Shown here piece by piece: positions 5,420-35,971 of a stretch of DNA of 64,000 nucleotides. Each line of letters opens with the position of its first letter. The first letter of the stretch is position 1. A model generated the notes under the pieces. It was not told the origin of the DNA and searched no databases. It saw only the letters and a program-made list of their open reading frames with translations. Where the stretch lies: the NCBI GenBank assembly GCA_944989445.1, contig CALYLW010000341.1, forward strand, positions 400,246 through 464,245, written 5' to 3'. The stretch is from Ampullaceana balthica (Eukaryota > Mollusca > Gastropoda > Lymnaeidae). The position numbers and the translations under genes are program-made.

Positions 5420-5830
5420 AGGTATTTTTAAAGAGGGCGGGTTTGAGCGAAAGAATAGAGAAATAAATTGAACGGAAGGGAAGGTTTTTTTTTCGAGGAC
5501 TTAAGGGGGATGGGGCGCGAGTGAGGTGTGGGTGGAGGCGGAGCGTTAAGGGGAGGTAATCACGTAATTTTTTTATTTATTAAAATTAGGTAATTATATC
5601 CCATTGATCATGTTTTTATGCAATTTATAAACACCTCCCATAACAAAATGAAAGGGATAAAAAATACCCAATTTTCATAATACAATTTGTTCGCGATTAT
5701 CTTCCCTTATCCCCCCATCAATACCCAGCCCCCGCCCCCATGCGTCCTAACCCTTCAGGAAAAAAAACCGCCCCCTCAATTTATTGCTCTCGTCACCTGC
5801 TAAGCCCCTCCCCCTTACCTCTGAAATAAT
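5420..5830. repeat. Imperfect inverted repeat (MITE-like)
   Basis: The left end ('gggcgggtttgagcgaaag' then 'aaataaattgaacgg') is loosely matched by the reverse complement of the right end near 5750-5830. The centre is AT-rich and the arms G-rich on opposite strands. It lies just upstream of the gene A promoter block. No target duplication is clear. Confidence 0.3.
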
Positions 5831-5869
5831 ATCTATAACCTGCGTCACATACTACCAAAGAAACAGATG

Positions 5870-6251
5870 GAGATTTCATTATTTCGATTAGGTCTTAGGT
5901 GAATGAGCAATAGGGAGTCCTCTCCTTACTGCAGTGAATTTTATGTCCGTCCACTTACTGCATCAGCCGACAAAAATAGGACATTCCACACATACCTGCA
6001 ATGTTTTATTGTCAGTCTGAGTCTAATTTTAGGTTTATTTAACCCGTCGGTATCTCATTTGGACAGGCCCCCTCACAAATGAGATGGGACCTCACAAATG
6101 AGATGGGCCCTTACAAAGGCGGTGGCATGTGTGTATGTCAATAAAAAAACAATCAAGTGATAATTTCTTGGGTCTGACTGAGGGTTGATCGGTTTTAGTT
6201 AGAATTACACCACGATGTTATATCGCCACGTGTGTCTCTGGGTGTGGACAA
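5870..6251 (+). promoter_or_regulatory. Gene A upstream region, paralogous to that of gene B
   Basis: The block from about 5870 can be aligned with 16985-17309 upstream of gene B. Conserved pieces include 'atttcgattaggtct' against 'atttcggttagttcc', a tract with 'cctcacaaatgagatggga', 'gtgtgtatgtcaataa', and 'ctgactgagggttgatc'. This shows that the tandem duplication covered the promoter as well as the exons. There is no perfect kappa-B site here. The nearest match is GGGAGTCCTC at about 5915, one base off consensus. Confidence 0.6.
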
Positions 6252-6258
6252 TATATAA
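6252..6258 (+). promoter_or_regulatory. TATA box of gene A
   Basis: TATATAA lies about 30 bp before a block ('ccactgagagatattc') that is nearly identical in gene B, where TATATAA is at 17310-17316. The conserved spacing supports a real core promoter with transcription starting near 6282. Confidence 0.65.
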
Positions 6259-6281
6259 TTGTTTAGTAGAGCCACTGAGAG

Positions 6282-6389
6282 ATATTCCTCCGCCACGATA
6301 TCTCGGCCTGCGAAAGAACTTCCACTCACAGGAGAAGCACATTGAAATAATATTTTAAAAGATATATAAAAAATTATTTTTCTTCAAAG
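6282..6389 (+). other. Gene A non-coding first exon (5' UTR)
   Basis: It begins about 30 bp after the TATA box and carries 'ccgccacgatatctcggcct', conserved in gene B as 'ccgccacgatacctcggcct'. The proposed donor at 6390 is AAAG|GTTGGT, aligned with the much stronger AAAG|GTATGT of gene B. The exon has no long open frame. The weak donor in gene A makes its exact end uncertain. Confidence 0.5.
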
Positions 6390-6433
6390 GTTGGTATAGC
6401 CTTTAATTTTTATATTATTATTATGATTATCTA

Positions 6434-6965
6434 TCTATATATATAATTCTCTTCGTGGTCGGACCCTGCAAGACACCAAGCTGCACGTATGTTCAACAGA
6501 TACTAATTTTAGAAAGAAGCGCACCAAATTACTGCACCAATGCATCAAAAGGTGTGCAAATTAAATATGCGCTGTACAAAAAAAATTATATGACGTCATT
6601 GTTTTCGCTGATATTTTAATTTTGAAAAAAGGGAACAATGTAAAAAGTTATAAAATACTTTGTGTACATTTCAGAAAGTTTAATATTTCGTAGTGATCAA
6701 ACAAGGACAAGTTAGTTGGGATTTTGAAAAATGTGGGCGCTGTAGGCGCCCTAAAAAGTGCATTTTTTCAAAATAAATAGATTTCAGCTGAACACTTCCG
6801 TCATTTTTTACGGGTGATACGCCGCGGGTCTCTCCAGAGTTCCTTCTTTTCATTCACTCACAGTCGTTTGCCCAAATCCACCCCATTTTGACAACTGTGT
6901 CTTTCAGGAAGTCTTCATCCGTCACTAAATCATTAGCGGCGTATGCTACGCCGCGGGTCAGCTAG
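6434..6965 (+). mobile_element. Non-autonomous Helitron, first unit of a tandem pair
   Basis: The left end TCTATATATATAATTCTC follows an A. The right end has the stem GCGTATGCTACGC-type hairpin region, then CTAG at 6962-6965. An internal second hairpin-type end ('ttccgtcattttttacggg', 6798-6816) resembles the 3' end of the copy at 14893, as if two alternative 3' termini lie in series. The element sits about 45 bp inside the first intron of gene A. Confidence 0.7.
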
Positions 6966-7421
6966 TATATATAATTCTCTTCGTGGTCGGACCCTGCGAG
7001 GCAACAAGAAGCTGCATGTGCAACAGATACTAATTTTAGAAAGCAGCGCACCAAATTACTGCACCAATGCATCAAAAGGTGTGCAAATTAAATATGCGCT
7101 GTAAAAAAATATATATGACGTCATTGTTGTCGCTGATATTTTAATTTTGTAAAAAGGGAACAATGTAAAAAGAGGATTTGATGATGGTTAATTATAACAT
7201 CAAAAGACAAAGGGGGCGCCATAGGCGCCCTACAACCCCTATTATAAAATACTGTGTGTGCATTTCAGAAAGTTTAATATTTCGTATTGATCAAAAAGGA
7301 CAAGTTAGTTGGGCTTTTGAAAAAGGTCGGCGCCGTAGGCGCCCTAAAAAAGTGCATTAAAGGGGTAAAAGAACTCTCCATGAACAAGTCTGCGGCGTAT
7401 GCTACGCCACGGGGCGTCTAG
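6966..7421 (+). mobile_element. Non-autonomous Helitron, second unit of the pair
   Basis: It starts TATATATAATTCTC immediately after the CTAG of the first unit, lacking only the leading TCTA, and shares its first ~230 bp with that unit. It ends with a hairpin and CTAG at 7418-7421, followed by T. The outer flanks of the pair are A and T, as expected for Helitron insertion. The two units form a head-to-tail dimer. Confidence 0.7.
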
Positions 7422-8840: not shown

Positions 8841-8961
8841 ATGGCCTCCAATTTCATCATTGCCGCTCTGCTTGTAGTCGCAATGGTAGCGAATCTAAAT
8901 GATAGTCTAACTGTCCCGGTTAATGGAGAAGATGGCAGCGAGTTTCAGGACGTGACTACAG
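8841..8961 (+). CDS. Gene A coding exon 1: signal peptide and acidic pro-segment
   Basis: This exon encodes 40 residues plus the first base of codon 41. The start codon follows a splice acceptor (cag|ATGGCC) exactly as in gene B, which fixes the start. Residues 1-22 are a signal peptide with core FIIAALLVVAMVA and a likely cut after NLNDS. Residues 23-40 form an acidic pro-segment ending GSEFQDVTT, which is identical in gene B. Overall 30 of 40 residues match gene B. The exon ends ACAG|GTGAGT, a consensus donor. I do not recognise the family. It is a small secreted precursor, and an immune or other bioactive peptide role is only an inference from layout. The donor is repeated 27 times in the intron that follows. 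Confidence 0.75.
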
Positions 8962-9983
8962 GTGAGTTGTACATGAAACCATGGGAGGACTACAGGACTA
9001 CAGGTGAGTTGTACATGTAACCATCATGGGGGGACTACAGGACTACAGGTAAGTTGTACATGTAACCATGGGAGGACTACAGGACTACAGGTGAGTTGTG
9101 CATGTAACCATGGGAGGACTACAGGTGAGTTGTACATGTAACCATGGGAGGACTACACGACTACAGGTGAGTTGTACATATAACCATGGGAGGACTACAG
9201 GTGAGTTGTACATGTAACCATGGGAGGACTACAGATAAGTTGTACATGTAACCATGGGAGGACTACACGACTACAGGTGAGTTGTGCATGTAACCAAGGG
9301 AGGACTACACGACTGCAGGTGAGTTGTACATGTAACCATGGGAGGACTAAAGGTGAGTTGTACATGTAACCATGGGAGGACTACAGTTGAGTTGTACATG
9401 TAACCATGGGGGGACTACAGGTGAGTTGTACATGTAACCATGGGAGGACTACACGACTACAGATGAGTTGCACATGTAATCATGGGAGGACTACACGACT
9501 ACAGGTGAGTTGTACCTGTAACCATGGGAGGACTACAGGTGAGTTGTACATATAATCATGGGAGGACTATAGGTGAATTGTACATGTAACCATGGGGGGA
9601 CTACAGGACTACAGGTGAGTTGTACATATAATCATGGGAGGACTACAGGTGAGTTGTACATGTAAACATGGGAGGACTACAGGACTACAGGTGAGTTGTA
9701 AATATAATCATGTGAGGACTACAGGTGAGTTGCACATGTAACCATGGGAGGACTACAGGACTACTGGTGAGTTGTACATGTAACCATTGGAGGACTACAG
9801 GTGAGTTGCACATGTAGCCAAGGGAGGACTACAGGTGAGTTGCACATGTAACCATGGGAGGACTACACTACAGGTGAGTTGTACATGTAACCATTGGAGG
9901 ACTACAGGTGAGTTGCACATGTAACCAAGGGAGGACTACAGGTGAGTTGCACATGTAACTATGGGAGGACTACAGGACTACAG
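8962..9983 (+). repeat. Minisatellite of 27 copies of the exon-1 splice donor (34/42 bp unit)
   Basis: The unit begins GTGAGTTGTACATGTAACCA and ends GGACTACAG, so each junction recreates ACTACAG|GTGAGT, the donor of exon 1. I count 27 units. The longer ones carry an extra 8-bp GACTACAG or GACTACAC. Twenty-two units keep exact GTGAGT, one has GTAAGT and one GTGAAT. Three have lost the GT. The array starts exactly at the functional donor and therefore probably arose from it. Gene B has two degenerate units at the same position. Confidence 0.9.
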
Positions 9984-10046: not shown

Positions 10047-11780
10047 TTTAAAATGTTCCAGCTGTATAAGTTTTACCGCCTATAAAATGTTCCAGCTGTA
10101 TAAGTTTTACCGCCTATAAAATGTTCCCGCTGTATAAGTTTTACCGCCTATAAAATGTTCCAGCTGTATAAGTTTTACCGCCATAAAATGTTCCAGCTGT
10201 ATAAGTTTTACCGCCTATAAAATGTTCCACCTGTATAAGTTTTACCGCCTATAAAATGTTCAAGCGGTTCACGTTTTACCGCCTATAAAATGTTCCAGCG
10301 GTATAAGTTTTACCGCCTATAAAATGTTCCAGCGGTATAAGTTTTACCGCCTATAAAATGTTCCAGCGGTATAAGTTTAACCGCCTATAAAATGTTCCAG
10401 CGGTATAAGTTTAACCGCCTATAAAATGTTCCAGCGGTATAAGTTTAACCGCCTATAAAATGTTCCAGCGGTATAAGTTTTACCGCCTATAAAATGTTCC
10501 AGCGGTATAAGTTTAACCGCCTATAAAATGTTCCAGCTGTATAAGTTTAACCGCCTATAAAATGTTCCAGCTGTATAAGTTTAACCGCCTATAAAATGTT
10601 CCAGCTGTATAAGTTTAACCGCCTATAAAATGTTCCAGCGGTATAAGTTTAACCGCCTATAAAATGTTCCAGCGCTATAAGTTTAACCGCCTATAAAATG
10701 TTCAAGCGGTTCACGTTTTACCGCCTATAAAATGTTCAAGCGGTTCACGTTTTACCGCCTATAAAATGTTCCAGCGGTATAAGTTTAACCGCCTATAAAA
10801 TGTTCAAGCGGTTCACGTTTTACCGCCTATAAAATGTTCCAGCGGTATAAGTTTAACCGCCTATAAAATGTTCAAGCGGTTCACGTTTTACCGCCTATAA
10901 AATGTTCCAGCTGTATAAGTTTTACCGCCTATAAAATGTTCCAGCGGTATAAGTTTAACCGCCTATAAAATGTTCCAGCTGTATAAGTTTTACCGCCTAT
11001 AAAATGTTCCAGAGGTATAAGTTTTACCGCCTATAAAATGTTCCAGTGGTATAAGTTTAACCGCCTATAAAATGTTCCAGCTGTATAAGTTTTACCGCCT
11101 ATAAAATGTTCCAGCTGTATAAGTTTTACCGCCTATAAAATGTTCCAGCGGTATAAGTTTTACCGCCTATAAAATGTTCCAGCTGTATAAGTTTAACCGC
11201 CTATAAAATGTTCCAGCTGTATAAGTTTAACCGCCTATAAAATGTTCCAGCTGTATAAGTTTAACCGCCTATAAAATGTTCCAGCGGTATAAGTTTAACC
11301 GCCTATAAAATGTTCCAGCGGTATAAGTTTAACCGCCTATAAAATGTTCCAGCTGTATAAGTTTAACCGCCTATAAAATGTTCCAGCGGTATAAGTTTAA
11401 CCGCCTATAAAATGTTCCAGCTGTATAAGTTTAACCGCCTATAAAATGTTCCAGCTGTATAAGTTTAACCGCCTATAAAATGTTCCAGCGCTATAAGTTT
11501 TACCGCCTATAAAATGTTCCAGCGGTTTAAGTTTTACCGCCTATAGAATGTTCCAGCGGTTTAAGTTCTACCGCCTTTAAAATGTTCCAGCGGTTTAAGT
11601 TTTACCGCCTATAGAATGTTCCAGCGGTTTAAGTTTTACCGCCTTTAAAATGTTCCAGCGGTTTAAGTTTTACCGCCTATAGAATGTTCCAGCGGTTTAA
11701 GTTTTACCGCCTATAAAATGTTCCAACGGTTTAAGTTTTACCGCCTATAGAATGTTCTAGCAGTATAAGTTTTACCGCCT
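10047..11780 (+). repeat. Minisatellite, ~34-bp hairpin-forming unit, ~50 copies, gene A intron 1
   Basis: The unit contains TATAAAATGTTCCAGCGG followed by TATAAGTTTTACCGCC. In units with GCGGTA the text GCGGTA-TAAGTTT-TACCGC makes a 6-bp stem with a 7-base loop. Variants with GCTGTA or GCGCTA weaken it. Alternating variants (tttaac or ttttac, ggttcacg) form local higher-order patterns. The units at the 3' end (from about 11510) differ, with 'ggtttaag' and 'tatagaatg'. Confidence 0.9.
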
Positions 11781-13713: not shown

Positions 13714-13847
13714 ACGCCCCGGTAGATGGTGATGATATTCAAAATAATAGCGAAAAAAGTCTCAATCTTAACACCGCGTTGACATCTCTGTGGGCCAGGG
13801 AAGTTCCACTACACATGTTACCACTTCTCTTAGGAAAGTTTGGCTGG
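13714..13847 (+). CDS. Gene A coding exon 2: pro-segment end and C-terminal peptide
   Basis: The acceptor is TTCTTTTCCAG|AC. The split codon completes to Asp and opens DAPVDGDD, aligned with EAPVDGED in gene B. Then follow SEKSLNLN, a hydrophobic stretch and LPLLLGKFGW. The exon ends at GGCTGG|GTGAGT, exactly aligned with GGCTAA|GTAAGT in gene B, in phase 0. Without splicing, reading continues to a TAG at 13869-13871, adding VSIMIEK. With splicing to the candidate exon at 15838 the precursor is about 100 residues, close to the 104 of gene B. There are no Cys residues and no dibasic cleavage sites. The function is unknown. Confidence 0.7.
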
Positions 13848-13871
13848 GTGAGTATCATGATAGAAAAGTAG

Positions 13872-17944: not shown

Positions 17945-18065
17945 ATGGCCTCCCACTTTATCATTGCTGCTCTGCTTGTTGTCGCACTGGTGGTGAATAT
18001 TGCTTACAGTCTACCTGTCCCGGCTGAAGGGGAAGAGGGTAGCGAGTTTCAGGACGTCACTACAG
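17945..18065 (+). CDS. Gene B coding exon 1: signal peptide and acidic pro-segment
   Basis: It has the same architecture as gene A exon 1: an acceptor 'aacag' immediately before ATGGCC, 40 codons plus one base, and an ACAG|GTGAGT donor. Residues 1-22 are a signal peptide with core FIIAALLVVALVVNIA and a likely cut after AYS. Residues 23-40 begin LPVPAEGEEG and end EFQDVTT. An upstream in-frame ATG at 17717 would add residues, but it lies in the intron and is not conserved. The exon belongs to an unrecognised family of secreted precursors. With the acidic pro-segment, it fits a peptide that is processed after secretion. Confidence 0.8.
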
Positions 18066-18152
18066 GTGAGTTGCACATGTAACCATGAACGGACTGCACG
18101 ACTACAGATAAGTTGTGAATAAAATCACGGAAGGTCTACACGTCTAATTCAG
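18066..18152 (+). repeat. Two degenerate splice-donor units at gene B intron 1
   Basis: Directly after exon 1 come a 42-bp unit (GTGAGTTGCACATGTAACCA to CGACTACAG) and a 45-bp decayed unit starting ATAAGTTGTGAATAAAATCA. They match the 34/42-bp repeat of gene A intron 1. Gene B thus shows either the seed state before expansion or the result of contraction. Confidence 0.75.
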
Positions 18153-18773: not shown

Positions 18774-18967
18774 AAGCTCCAGTAGACGGTGAAGATAATC
18801 TCAAGATTAGCGGGAAGAGTCTCAACCTCAACAGCCTGACGACCATTCTATTGCTCAGGAATATATTAGGCAACACCAACACCGGAATTAACACCGGTAC
18901 CGGAATATTGTCAGGAATCAACACGCAGAGTCTGCTTACTTTATACCTGCTCGGGCGTGTTGGCTAA
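18774..18967 (+). CDS. Gene B coding exon 2: pro-segment end, cationic C-terminal half and stop
   Basis: The split codon gives Glu, opening EAPVDGED, then ISGKSLNLN as in gene A. After Asp49 there is no Asp or Glu to the end, while two Lys and two Arg remain. The region is rich in Leu, Ile, Thr, Asn and Gly, with an NTG-repeat segment (GNTNTGINTGTG) absent from gene A. It ends LYLLGRVG and a stop at 18965-18967. A Gly just before the stop can be an amidation donor. The full precursor is 104 residues with no Cys. A secreted hydrophobic cationic peptide with an acidic pro-piece is consistent with an antimicrobial or neuropeptide-like role, but no family match is claimed. Confidence 0.75.
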
Positions 18968-21685: not shown

Positions 21686-21852
21686 AATTTCTGTTATATT
21701 ATTTCGCATATTTTAAGGCGTTACGTCATGTGACGTATGGTTGTATCGAGTAAAACTGGTGAAAGAGGCGGGGAGGGGGGATATGTTATGACTTTTGATT
21801 TAAAATATTTATGTTGCTTATTTTTTTTAAAAAAATATTTAAAAAATAATTT

Positions 21853-24421
21853 CGTAGTCCTAAACAGTTTTCTGTAAGAATTTGTGGAGACTATAAAGCT
21901 ACACTGAATAAGCAAATAGAGCTAAATAGGTACCCTATTCCTAACATTGAGGATATTTCTTTGAAGTTAGCAGGAGGAGACAAATTCACTGAATTAGACT
22001 TTAGTCATGCTTACACTCAACTAGAACTTCATCCAGATTCAAAAGTCTATACGACAATAAACACACATAAGGGACTATACCAATATGAAAGACTATGTTT
22101 TGGGATATCATCCAGCCCTGGAATTTTCCAAGCTGTCATGGACAGTATTTTTCAGGACATTCCAAATGTTTGTGTTTACTTTGACAATTTATACATAACT
22201 GGTAAGAATGACACTGAACATCTTCAAACACTTGATAAAGTCTTGAAAATAGTCGGTGAAAAAGGTTTAAAAATAAACAAAGATAAATGTCAATTCATGC
22301 TGACAGATATTAGTTTTCTGGGTTATAAATTGAGCAAGCAAGGTCTCAGACCTCAACCTGAGAAAACAAAAGCCATTAAAGAAGCACCCAAACCTAAAAA
22401 TACCCAACAGCTAAGAGCTTTTTTGGGCTTGATAAATTACTATGCAAAGTTCATAGGGAATATGTCTGATAAACTATCACCACTGTACAAGCTGCTGCAG
22501 AAAAATGCAACTTGGCACTGGGGTAAACAACAAGATGCTGCTTTTAATGCAGCAAAAGAAGCTTTGTCTTCCGACACCTTGCTAACTCACTATGACCCAG
22601 GGAAAAGACTTATCTTAACATGTGATGCTTCACCAGATGGTGTAGGAGCAGTTTTATCTCACATAGATGAAAATTGTGACAGACCCATTGCTTTTGCCAG
22701 TAGATCTTTGAACCAGGCTGAGAAAAATTATTCTCAGTTAGATAGGGAAGGCTTAGGCATCATTTTTGGTGTTAAGAAATTTCACAAGTTTCTGTTTGGT
22801 AGGGAGTTCACCATCTTTACAGATCATAAGCCATTACTAGGTTTGTTTGGGGAAAACAAACCCCTGCCTGAGCATGCCTCACCAAGGGTGCAAAGGTGGG
22901 CTATCACACTAGCCGCATACAATTATGAATTGAAATACAAACCTGGATCTGAGAATAGTGCAGATGGTCTTAGTCGTTTACCTTTAAAAAACCAAAGCCT
23001 TAGCTATGTACCAGAAGATGTATTTGTTCTTTTCACTATCATGGATAACTCCAATATAAATGTGAATGATGTTAAGAGAGAAACACAAAAAGATGAGTGC
23101 TTGATAAAAGTATATGAGTACTGTAAGAATGGTTGGCCTGAAGAGTCAGTGAATGATGATTTAAGGCCATATAAAATAAGAAAAATAGAGTTAAGTCTAG
23201 AAGATGGATGTGTGCTATGGGGGTCAAGGGTTATTATACCCTAAAATGTTACAAAAAGAAGTTTTAAGAACTTTACATGATACACATCTTGGTTCTTCCA
23301 AAATGAAGAGTCTTGCACGATCGTGGTTCTGGTGGCCACATATGGATGCTGATATTGAAAGATATGTAAAGCTTTGTTCAAGCTGTGCACAACATTCAAA
23401 TCAACCAGCTACAGCACCTTTGCAAAACTGGGATTGGCCAATCGAACCATGGAAACGTATCCATGTAGATTTTGCAGGACCCTTCATGAACAAAATGTTC
23501 TTAATTGTTATTGATTCACATTCTAAGTGGTTAGAAGTTAAAATCATGAACACAATCACTGCAAGTGATACCATTATAGAACTTAAGGAAATATTTTCAA
23601 CCCATGGGTTACCTGATCAAATTGTTTCAGATAATGGGCCTAGTTTCACTGCTCATGAATTTAAACTGTTTTGTATAGCAAATGGTATTGAGCATATAAC
23701 CACATCACCCTATCATCCTGCTGGGAATGGTTTGGCTGAAAGAGCGGTAGGCATATTCAAAACCGCTATGGTAAAAATGGGTACAGGTAACAAATTTTCT
23801 CTCAGGGAAAGAGTTAACAGGTTCTTAGCCAAATACCGCACAACTCCTCATATAACAACAGGTGTTGCACCATGCGAATTGCTGTGTGGTAGAAAAATTA
23901 AAACTCACCTAGACCTACTACATCCAACTGTTCAAAGGTCTGTTTCCCAACATCAACATACACAAAAATTAAATCATGACAAAACATCCATTGAGAGAGA
24001 GTTTGGGGTTAATGATAATGTGTATCTGAGAAATTATGGGAGAGGGGAAAAATGGATACCAGGTCAAATTGTTCAATGTACAGGACCTGTGTCTTATAAA
24101 GTAAAAACAAATAATGGACTTATTGTCCGTAGACATGCAGACCAGTTAAAAATAACTTGTGCAGATAATGAGTGCGAATCTGTCAATCCCACCAGATCTG
24201 ACCGGTTCACACCAACTCAGTTTGTTCCACAACCAATGTCTGTTGCTATGAGTGAACCAAGTATTCTAGAGTCAGAAAATGTAAATTCTGGAATTAAGGA
24301 TTTAGATCCTAGACTCCCTGAGCTAGAGAGTCCAGATGGTCAGAATCTTGAGTCACCAAATCAACAGCCACTGAGAAGGTCAAACAGGACAATCAAAGTC
24401 CCAGATAAGTTAAATCTTTGA
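21853..24421 (+). pseudogene. Ty3/Gypsy retrotransposon pol (RT, RNase H, integrase), truncated and frameshifted
   Basis: Reading starts inside RT (VRICGDYKATLN) without gag or protease. RT motifs follow, but the catalytic box reads VYFDNLYITG where YLDD is expected, so the second Asp is Asn. RNase H (LTCDASPDGVGAVLSH, FTIFTDHKPL) follows. A one-base frame change near 23240 separates the halves. Integrase has an HHCC zinc finger (HLGSSK to CSSCAQ) and a DDE core with Asp in VDFAGPF, Asp in SDNGPSF and Glu in NGLAERAV. The protein ends RRSNRTIKVPDKLNL. The copy is defective, lies about 170 bp after gene B, and shares its orientation. Confidence 0.9.
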
Positions 24422-33479: not shown

Positions 33480-35971
33480 CAGGGGTTCCTAACCAGTGGT
33501 GCATGCAACCCCAAGGGGTGCATGAGGAGGTTCCAGGGGGTGCATGAACGATTCAGAGAAGAAGAAAAAAAAGAAAAAGAGGAAGAAAAAAAAGAAGAAG
33601 GAATAAAATGAAAGAAAAACTGATAATCTTAAAATGTAAACCATAAGCAAGGCATGCCGCGTCAAAGGGCGGCCATAGACAATCTTTTTGATAGCTAGAT
33701 ACTCGTTCGCGCATGTCGAAAATTGACGGAAAACTTTTTCGCAAAATTAACTGTTAGCTCTACGTGTTCCTCGGGATTTCGTGTTTTACGTCACAGTTTT
33801 CTAAAAATAATTTAATTTTGTCATCAAATACGGCTTCTGGTGACCCTCTCACTGTTTTGAGCGGATGTAAACGTTGGGATTTTTTTCCCTTCACTTTTAT
33901 TGCTCGGTACCCTGCAAAGGTCTTAAAAACTTTAATTGTAAGCCAATATTCGTCATTGAAACCTAAAATCTTGAGTTGAGCATCCAATTCAGGTTATTAA
34001 AAACATCAACTTCGTCAGTTAAACATTTGCCTGTGACTGGTACGACTTTACGATTGTCATCACCCCCTCAAAATCGTTGATAAATTAAAAGAGAGAGGGA
34101 GAGATGGAACACAAAAGCCTCAGTGTTTCCTCTGGAAACATCCTGTGCAATGACAACATGAAGCCTGTTAGACTCCGAGAGCGCTTGGAGAAAGTCCAAT
34201 TCCAAGGACAGTGTTGATGTCTTCAAGCAGAAGAGAGCTCGCTTCTTGACCTCAGGTACCTTGCCCAAGCTTGGATTTTCTTTGTCACAGAAACCTGCAC
34301 TGGAGGCATCATTTAAGGTTGCATATCTTATTGCAAAGAACAAGAAGCCCCACACCATTGGAGAAACTTTGGTGAAGCCTTGTGCTCTGGAGATGGTGGA
34401 ACTGATGTGTGGTCACCAGCAAAGGAATCAGGTTGAGAAAGTCCCATTGTCCAATGACGCTATTCATTCCAGGATTAGTGACAGGGCTGCAGACATTCTG
34501 AATCAAGTCATGTGCAAGATGAGAAGCAGTACTTTTCAATTTAGCATGCAGCTGGATGAATCAACTGATGTAGCACAATGCAGTCATATTCTTGTATTTG
34601 TGAGATATGTTCACAATGGATTGATGAAGATGAAATTTCTCTTTTGTAAGCCACCCCTAGCTACTACCAAAGCTGCTGATGTGCTGCAGCTAGTCAGGGC
34701 ATTCTTCACTGAAAACCATTTTGACTGGACTTCAAGAATTTCTTTAATTTGCACAGATGCTGCTCCCTCCATGCACGGTAATAAGTCAGGATTTTCAGCA
34801 CTGGTAAAGAAAGAAGTTCCAGATATTGTCACTACCTACTGTATCTTTCATCGTCAGGTCCTGGCATGCAAAACTCTACCTCCAACCTTGAAGTCAGTTC
34901 TTTCTACTGCAGTCCAAGTTGTAAAAATTATCCGCTCACATGCCTTGAACCACTGCCTCTTCAAGTTGTTCTGTGACGAGGCTGGCTCTGAGCATGAAGC
35001 TCTGCTCTACCACACTGAGATGTGCTGGTTGTCCAGGGGACGGATACTTTTTCGGTTAGTAGAACTGAGAGTGGAGATTGCCATTTTCTTGAGAGAAAAA
35101 GAGAGTGACCTTGCTGACAAGTTTGAATGTCCAAATTTCATTCATTACTTGGCATACCTGGCTGACATCTTCTCCATCTTAAATGAGTTGAACACACCTC
35201 TCCAAGGACCTGCTGTGACTGTAATGGATGCTACTGTGAGATTGTAAGCCTTCCTTAACAAACTGCCACTATTCCAACGACGACTAGAAAAGTCCAACTT
35301 GGCCAACTTTCCACTCTTGGATGAAGCTGTAATATCTGGTGCAGAAGGAAGCACCGAGGGATCACTGCCTGAAAACATCAAAGGGGGGATTTCAGAGCAC
35401 CTTTCAACATTGCAAAGGGCCTTTGATGGGTATTTCTGTCAAGAAATTTCTAGGAAAGACCTTTGGATTTGCAATCCTTTTCTCTGTGACTTGGACAACA
35501 TTGATGACAGTGACCTTGCTAAAGATGACCTGATTGATTTGAGAACCAGAGAAGTACTGAGGAGTGCCTTCAGTTGCAATACCTTGATTGAATTTTGGTG
35601 CGCCCAGCTAGATTCCTACCCACAACTAGCCAAGAGGGAAGTACTGACACTCCTTACATTTCCCACAACCTATCTCCGTGAAGCAGGATTCTCCACACCT
35701 TTGAGATTAAAACCAAGGAAAGGAATAAGTTGAATGCAGAGGATGACATGAGAGTTGCTTTGTCCAAAACAGTCCCCAGATTTAAATCGCTGATTGATCA
35801 TAAGAAGCAGCAGATCTCTCACTAAATTCCTTGTTGCCTATGGTCAAAACTGTTGTGTTTCTAAAATAAACATAGTTTATTATGCATTTTCTGCAAGTTT
35901 CACGAGGGGGTGCATGAACTTTTTTGGGCATCTGAAGGGGTGCATGGACCCCAAAAGGTTAAGAACCACTG
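33480..35971 (+). mobile_element. hAT transposon, 2.5 kb, with perfect 8-bp target duplication
   Basis: The ends are CAGGGGTTCCTAACC and, inverted, CAGTGGTTCTTAACC, followed on each side by GCATG-rich subterminal repeats. The flanks are CTCTAAGG at 33472-33479 and 35972-35979, a perfect 8-bp duplication as hAT elements make. The interior carries a decayed transposase on the + strand. Confidence 0.92.
34078..35824 (+). pseudogene. hAT transposase of the ZBED5/FAM200-like type, broken
   Basis: The order of motifs is that of this transposase type. A decayed finger remnant (NMKPVRLRERL) is followed by LGFSLSQKPALEASFKVAYL and by QLDESTDV with the first catalytic Asp. Next come CTDAAPSMHGNKSGF with the second Asp, CIFHRQVLACKTLP, and a C-terminal dimerisation region FPTTYLREAGFS. 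There, Glu in the C/R-E-x-x-FS motif is the third acidic residue. The longest frame is 34246-35247, ending in an in-frame TAA, after which the same frame continues from 35248. A shift near 35725 moves the last 35 residues to another frame. It is not a functional gene as it stands. Confidence 0.88.

Follow-up and report, generated by a model that had tools for sequence, protein, structure and literature searches.

The first intron of gene A, a predicted gene of the gastropod Ampullaceana balthica, opens with a minisatellite whose repeat unit is the exon-intron boundary itself, so that 27 tandem copies of a 5' splice site (donor) follow the end of exon 1. The gene lies in a 64,000-nucleotide (nt) stretch, here called the window, that covers positions 400246 to 464245 of contig CALYLW010000341.1 (C341) in an assembly of 1.10 Gb and 3363 contigs. 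The array is an unusually long "mirage" within a tandem gene family, mirages being the minisatellite-like tandem duplications of exon-intron boundaries, unstable in length, that have been described in amphioxus (PMC3087553, PMC3902484). Judging from gene A and its paralogues, it is quite likely that this boundary-born array is mainly tolerated, with donor 1 used and the remaining donors spliced out with the intron.

The donor array at the end of exon 1

The array of gene A (array A) occupies window positions 8962 to 9983 on the forward strand and divides into 27 tandem units, of which one measures 45 nt, one 39 nt, and all others 34 or 42 nt; each has a donor-like start that follows a copy of the exon end. 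Tandem Repeats Finder (TRF) reports the same array with a 34-bp period, 25.3 copies, and a score of 938, and rechecking of the coordinates placed donor 27 at 9942 and the array end at 9983. The position and copy number given by the earlier sequence-only reading therefore hold, as does its description of the unit as the exon-1 donor with its intron flank: each unit carries approximately 8 nt of exon end followed by intron sequence, and 8 nt (GACTACAG) are common to the end of gene A exon 1 and the end of the first unit. GT is kept at positions +1 and +2 in 24 of the 27 units, GTGAGT in 22 (with GTAAGT in one more), CAG/GTGAGT in 20, and ACAG/GTGAGT in 19. That reading had placed all 22 copies of GTGAGT after ACAG, and only the count of the hexamer stands. 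Chance is excluded as the origin of the array. A coding repeat was ruled out as well, since units of 34 or 42 nt, mostly with an in-frame TAA or a frame shift, cannot form a peptide repeat.

A transcript would contain a run of near-equal donors, as had been claimed. Computed pairing with the 5' end of U1 reached -12.7 kcal/mol in 19 of the 27 donors; no unit scores better, and donor 1 is among those that attain this value. The mean for 3000 GT sites sampled from the surrounding 194 kb of the contig, arrays included, was -2.5 kcal/mol. The anatomy of the units indicates that the minisatellite arose when the boundary between exon 1 and intron 1 was duplicated in tandem. Short direct repeats of ACTACAG probably seeded this duplication, and the array probably grew and shrank afterwards through slippage or unequal exchange.

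Reading frame of gene A and the choice of donor

Exon 1 of gene A (8841 to 8961, forward strand) runs for 121 nt from the ATG to a phase-1 G, a length that takes the AG immediately 5' of the ATG as a putative acceptor. Its translation has a signal-peptide-like start, MASNFIIAALLVVAMVANLNDSLTVPVNGEDGSEFQDVTT, and there are six more paralogous exons on the contig. Exon 2 was predicted at 13714 to 13871 (forward strand) from the frame and the paralogues; it follows the acceptor TTTTCCAG/ACGCCCCGG and carries DAPVDGDDIQNNSEKSLNLNTALTSLWAREVPLHMLPLLLGKFGWVSIMIEK and a stop codon. The precursors of gene A and of its paralogues B and P1 gave only matches below the cut-off in Pfam, and a large protein set searched with P1 yielded no hit at E <= 10 (8 candidates).

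When each of the 27 donors was joined to the start of exon 2, the frame stayed open only with donor 1 (8962 to 8967, ACAG/GTGAGT), whose phase matches exon 2, and with donor 2 (9004 to 9009), both on the forward strand. Donor 2 adds 42 nt, or 14 codons (GELYMKPWEDYRTT); its frame stays open because ATGAAACC, free of TAA, stands in unit 1 in the place where most units have ATGTAACC. Donors 3 to 27 brought in a stop in 25 of 25 joins, so transcripts that use them should be unproductive. In five of the seven gene copies, those whose exons were joined, exon 2 begins in phase 1 and so fits donor 1. The splicing machinery would most likely pick donor 1, which comes first, pairs with U1 as well as any other unit, matches exon 2 in phase, and ends a short exon; the other 26 copies would then be removed with the intron. 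The array is probably harmless here, as splicing can rely on its first donor.

The sequence-only reading knew of no described case of such an arrangement. This was wrong: the arrangement is not new, because both the amphioxus mirages and the minisatellite of human 6-16/IFI6 have been described, the latter reportedly by Turri et al. in 1995. Mirages occur in Adh3, the globin genes BflGb6 and BflGb9, troponin C, and PGBD5, and a cephalochordate is the only host named in the parts of the reports drawn on here (PMC3087553, PMC3902484). Array A resembles them in having boundary-spanning units with some exon and some intron, in keeping the splice signal in many but not all units (AG/GT signals in the mirages, GT in 24/27 and GTGAGT in 22/27 units of array A), and in unit length, with 34 and 42 nt falling within the 10 to 72 bp of Adh3. 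It differs in size, with 27 units here and as many as 53 in one paralogue, compared with 6 and 3 in the haplotypes given for BflGb6, and the present arrays are spread over a tandem gene family. In human 6-16/IFI6 (G1P3), as in gene A, a minisatellite of donor consensus directly adjoins the end of an exon. In the human gene, two of the downstream repeats are reported to act as donors, which yields three mRNAs (PMC4526556), whereas in array A all of the extra donors but one would bring in a stop. Minisatellite expansion in recent paralogues also alters exon-intron structure in human segmental duplications, but those internal tandem repeats have units of approximately 30 bp, four repeats on average, and half of them in coding sequence, and no long donor array is described in the parts of the source drawn on here (PMC2812944). 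The literature consulted on precedents also comprised PMC2572611, PMC3618361, PMC4039745, and PMC6905558.

The human case provides the model for a different outcome, in which donors 1 and 2 and some more distal donors are each partly used and exon 1 varies in length. The open frame at donor 2, in a unit 1 free of TAA, makes one such variant able to give an altered protein in gene A, and to that extent the length variants proposed by the sequence-only reading are possible. The remaining 25 donors offer none that avoids a stop. Reading past donor 1, moreover, meets an in-frame stop inside unit 1 in six of six paralogues, gene A alone being open, and amphioxus mirages are reported to splice regularly, as suggested by reverse transcription-PCR (PMC3087553, PMC3902484). 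Partial use of several donors is thus unlikely.

Array size and unit variation across the gene family

A scan of 194 kb of contig C341 (280001 to 474000, minus 245 bases) found exon 1 seven times, always in the same orientation, at 289333 (P1), 323544 (P0), 337815 (P2), 377865 (P3), 395515 (P4), 409086 (A), and 418190 (B); in a DNA search of the genome, all of the matches listed were on this contig. GTGAG directly follows exon 1 in all seven copies. An anchor search counted 7 units in P1, 53 in P2, 50 in P3, 5 in P4, 27 in A, and 2 in B, so that copy number ranges from 2 to 53 between paralogues of one assembly. P0 has one unit followed by an insertion and then a relic of the array end, and unit 1 of P1, at 74 nt, seems to contain one extra diverged unit. 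The 3' edge of the array is recognizable in P1, P0, P2, P3, and A, and the exon end shared between exon and unit measures 8 nt in A and 7 to 9 nt in P2, P3, P4, and B. Because traces are present in all seven copies, the array appears to be older than the tandem duplication of the gene family. Paralogue B lies within the window on the forward strand, with exon 1 at 17945 to 18065, its two-unit array at 18066 to 18113 (through the second donor), and exon 2, with a stop, at 18774 to 18967; its donor 1 at 18066 is intact, and its donor 2 at 18108 reads ATAAGT.

Joined exons 1 and 2 give 104 codons before the stop in P1, 95 in P0, 92 in A, 104 in B, and 73 in P2. Exon 2 is truncated in P2, its remnant is frame-shifted relative to the family in P3, and it has an early stop in P4; the two biggest arrays, those of P2 and P3, thus both accompany a damaged exon 2. 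The ratio of nonsynonymous to synonymous substitution rates in exon 1 ranged from 0.24 to 2.30 over the ten pairwise comparisons of 120-nt exons, which omit P3 and P4 because their length differs, and from 0.31 to 0.59 for A against the others, which makes coding constraint on exon 1 likely for A, though not for every pair. Exon 1 is 78 to 93% identical among the copies (84% for A and P2), the 5' flank 46 to 83% (80 nt, seven copies; 70% for A and P2), and the 3' flank 52 to 74% (up to 180 nt, five copies; 72% for A and P2). The upstream flank of P4 (C341 395364 to 395514) matches the other copies poorly (46 to 58%), and its first exon may therefore have lost its context.

Variation along the unit was examined by comparing the 9-base donor window (-3 to +6) with all 34 cyclic windows, omitting unit 1 and the last unit. 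The donor window held 9 mismatches against a mean of 10.3 in A (25 units, rank 12), 13 against 20.1 in P2 (51 units, rank 8), and 11 against 11.9 in P3 (48 units, rank 21); for the three arrays pooled, it held 33 mismatches against a mean of 42.4 (rank 8 of 34). There is no clear excess of conservation in the donor bases over the rest of the unit, and a function for the extra donors is for this reason unsupported. Units of A differ among themselves by 8.2% and from those of P2 by 8.1%, with the first unit and the last two of each array omitted. Over the three long arrays, the between-minus-within difference of 0.0035 exceeded the top of 500 permutations (0.0015). Edge units differ more by eye, which matches the expectation for exchange; the edges of the BflGb6 cluster likewise escape homogenization (PMC3087553, PMC3902484).

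These comparisons bear on a regulatory role, in which the many sites would recruit or hold the U1 small nuclear ribonucleoprotein as a decoy, slow or strengthen the removal of intron 1, and let copy number tune output. Such a device would profit from the equal pairing of 19 donors, and it would agree with the retention of the array, at least as a relic, in seven of seven copies and with units that are more alike between loci (approximately 92% for A and P2) than their flanks are. A selected decoy, as the sequence-only reading had suggested, is nevertheless not borne out, since the donor columns vary nearly like the remainder of the unit and paralogues with similar exons hold anything from 2 to 53 units. 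The largest two arrays sit in copies with a damaged exon 2, and the RNA of 8950 to 9250, 301 nt at the array start, has no special fold (z score, +1.21; 87 of 100 shuffles fold equally well or better). A regulatory device is accordingly rated as quite improbable. Stepwise (recursive) removal, in which splicing from donor 1 to the AG at a unit end would recreate a donor and leave the same final mRNA as donor 1, is very improbable: most units run from GT to AG with the boundary ACAG/GTGAGT in 19 of 27, and the units of another array in the genome (L067) resemble small introns with a pyrimidine-rich end, but the units of gene A show by eye no pyrimidine tract before the AG and are just 34 to 45 nt long.

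Among the four options raised by the sequence-only reading, simple tolerance of the array is the one best supported by the sequences compared here. Several observations nevertheless weigh against it. Distal repeats are reported to serve as donors in human 6-16 (PMC4526556). In all three long arrays, the donor window varies slightly less than the average window does, which leaves room for weak selection on the donor bases. The units of A and P2 differ by only about 8%, while their flanks are merely 70% (5') and 72% (3') identical; units so similar beside diverged flanks point to exchange between arrays or to constraint on the whole unit, and the latter would suggest some function. The link between array size and gene damage is also loose, P4 being damaged with just 5 units.

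Donor arrays elsewhere in the genome

Array A is probably one of many in the genome, because both donor words tested occur in arrays more often than control words do. The new part is this breadth, with similar arrays at the exon ends of unrelated genes in one genome; no genome-wide account of donor arrays was found by title in the open-licence literature. Over the whole genome, three copies of CAGGTGAGT at 15- to 45-nt spacing occurred 3123 times, compared with 956 for the reversed word, and single words occurred 10431 and 7010 times, respectively. Such counts are weak as proof of enrichment because giant arrays can dominate them, and single hits of the control TGAATGGAC (10151) outnumbered those of its donor partner CAGGTAAGT (7775). 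One giant array of this control word spans C1:2877083-2883531, with steps mostly in multiples of approximately 27 nt.

The first 100 listed places of each word were therefore clustered into loci (gap of at most 250 nt, same strand), and loci with three or more places were taken as arrays. Among the matches listed, arrays made up 6 of 26 loci for CAGGTGAGT and 5 of 24 for CAGGTAAGT, compared with 2 of 88, 2 of 78, and 1 of 7 for the controls TGAGTGGAC, CAGTGGAGT, and TGAATGGAC. Together, 11 of 50 donor-word loci and 5 of 173 control loci were arrays (odds ratio, 9.5; Fisher p, 4.9e-5); when the giant array is split in three, as the clustering rule has it, TGAATGGAC gives 3 of 9 and the controls give 7 of 175 (odds ratio, 6.8; p, 2.2e-4). 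The sample is small, being confined to the first contigs, two donor words, and three controls with uneven coverage. One control is nearly uninformative, as the listed places for TGAATGGAC are filled by the giant array, were counted by eye, and cover the plus strand only. The donor words cover 2 to 4 Mb of contig C1 and two of the controls run from C1 to C3; for CAGGTGAGT, the places listed reach 2.08 Mb on the minus strand and 2.84 Mb on the plus strand of C1, and the array at C1:2095196 falls outside them.

The 5' flanks of 18 arrays were read, comprising all 13 distinct arrays in the listed part of the CAGGTGAGT triple search and 5 from the places listed for CAGGTAAGT. Five had an identified protein match within 0 to 5 residues of the first donor: an LHX9-type homeodomain exon (PDB 2dmq, E 9.9e-24; Pfam, 1.3e-11), two B4GALT-type exons (Pfam, 3.5e-18 and 3e-14, with PDB matches too), and two ABCA-type exons (PDB, E 2.6e-21 and 3.4e-21, the former with no match in Pfam). 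Another five had an open frame up to the array with no family assigned (L042, L052, L059, L060, and L066); Pfam gave no match for the first four, and PDB gave none for L066. An SLCO-like identity considered for the frame before L052 was rejected, as Pfam gave nothing and the single PDB hit (E 0.77) was an antibody chain. In seven measured arrays of these two groups, exon and first unit share 3 to 21 nt. A candidate exon ends approximately 60 nt before the array in L067 (C1:1789600-1790180), and the units of this array start with GTAAGT and end in the pyrimidine-rich TTCCTTTACCCTCAG, so that each looks like a small intron. The remaining seven (L022, L051, L053, L054, L058, L065, and L069) had no evident exon in the 330 nt read.

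Five further exons, which end inside the gene pieces L062 and L063 and were not chosen for having an array, were assigned to a gene kind by eye. In two of them, an array is present at the donor. In a B4GALT-type exon, it consists of 2.9 copies of a 69-bp unit that holds approximately 30 nt of exon, and in an ABCA-type exon, it consists of 51 copies of a 28-bp unit that begin approximately 12 nt past the exon end (L062, C1:6640000-6648000, reverse strand, approximately 5744 to 7186). The other three have none at the donor; they are a B4GALT-type exon and two ABCA-type exons, whose nearest arrays lie approximately 165 and 265 nt farther downstream.

In the 194-kb region of contig C341, TRF yielded 23 merged minisatellite rows (period, 12 to 100; at least 5 copies). 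Strong donors (MAG/GTRAGT) were present in 5 of the 23, each of them part of the P2, P3, or A array and with its strong donors on the gene strand only, and were absent from the other 18. It is conceivable, if somewhat short of probable, that minisatellites in this lineage arise preferentially at 5' splice sites. Transcription-linked DNA structure or short CAG/GT repeats, for example, would favor duplication of the boundary there; the arrays would persist since splicing stops at the first donor, and exon ends would act as a genome-wide source. The locus sample, small and annotation-free, speaks for preferred birth at exon ends at seven- to ninefold odds.

Other repeats share the window. Intron 1 of gene A holds a second, unrelated minisatellite of 51 copies of a 34-bp unit (10049 to 11780, forward strand), characterized by TRF, donor counts, BLAST, and alignment, in which no strong donor was found; by BLAST and alignment, a single related stretch follows the array in P2, and the minisatellite has therefore probably expanded in gene A. 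A Ty3-like retroelement at 21850 to 24418 spans two overlapping open frames, in which Pfam recognizes domains of reverse transcriptase, RNase H, and integrase. Long open frames at 34162 to 35730 look transposase-derived by eye, with no Pfam match for the 361-amino-acid frame. Long minisatellites are dense from 43288 to 63720 (for example, 77 x 25 bp, 17 x 83 bp, and 26 x 46 bp), none with a strong donor. The window contained no tRNAs and no RNA families above the gathering score.

The paralogues of gene A form a natural series, with 2, 5, 7, 27, 50, and 53 units after similar exons and exon 2 damaged in three, and this series bears on the old question of how one donor is selected when many are equal. 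Should donor words prove overrepresented in arrays genome-wide, minisatellites would have a source in exon ends, and mirages, known so far from single amphioxus genes in the reports drawn on here, would become a genome-scale feature with a testable origin.
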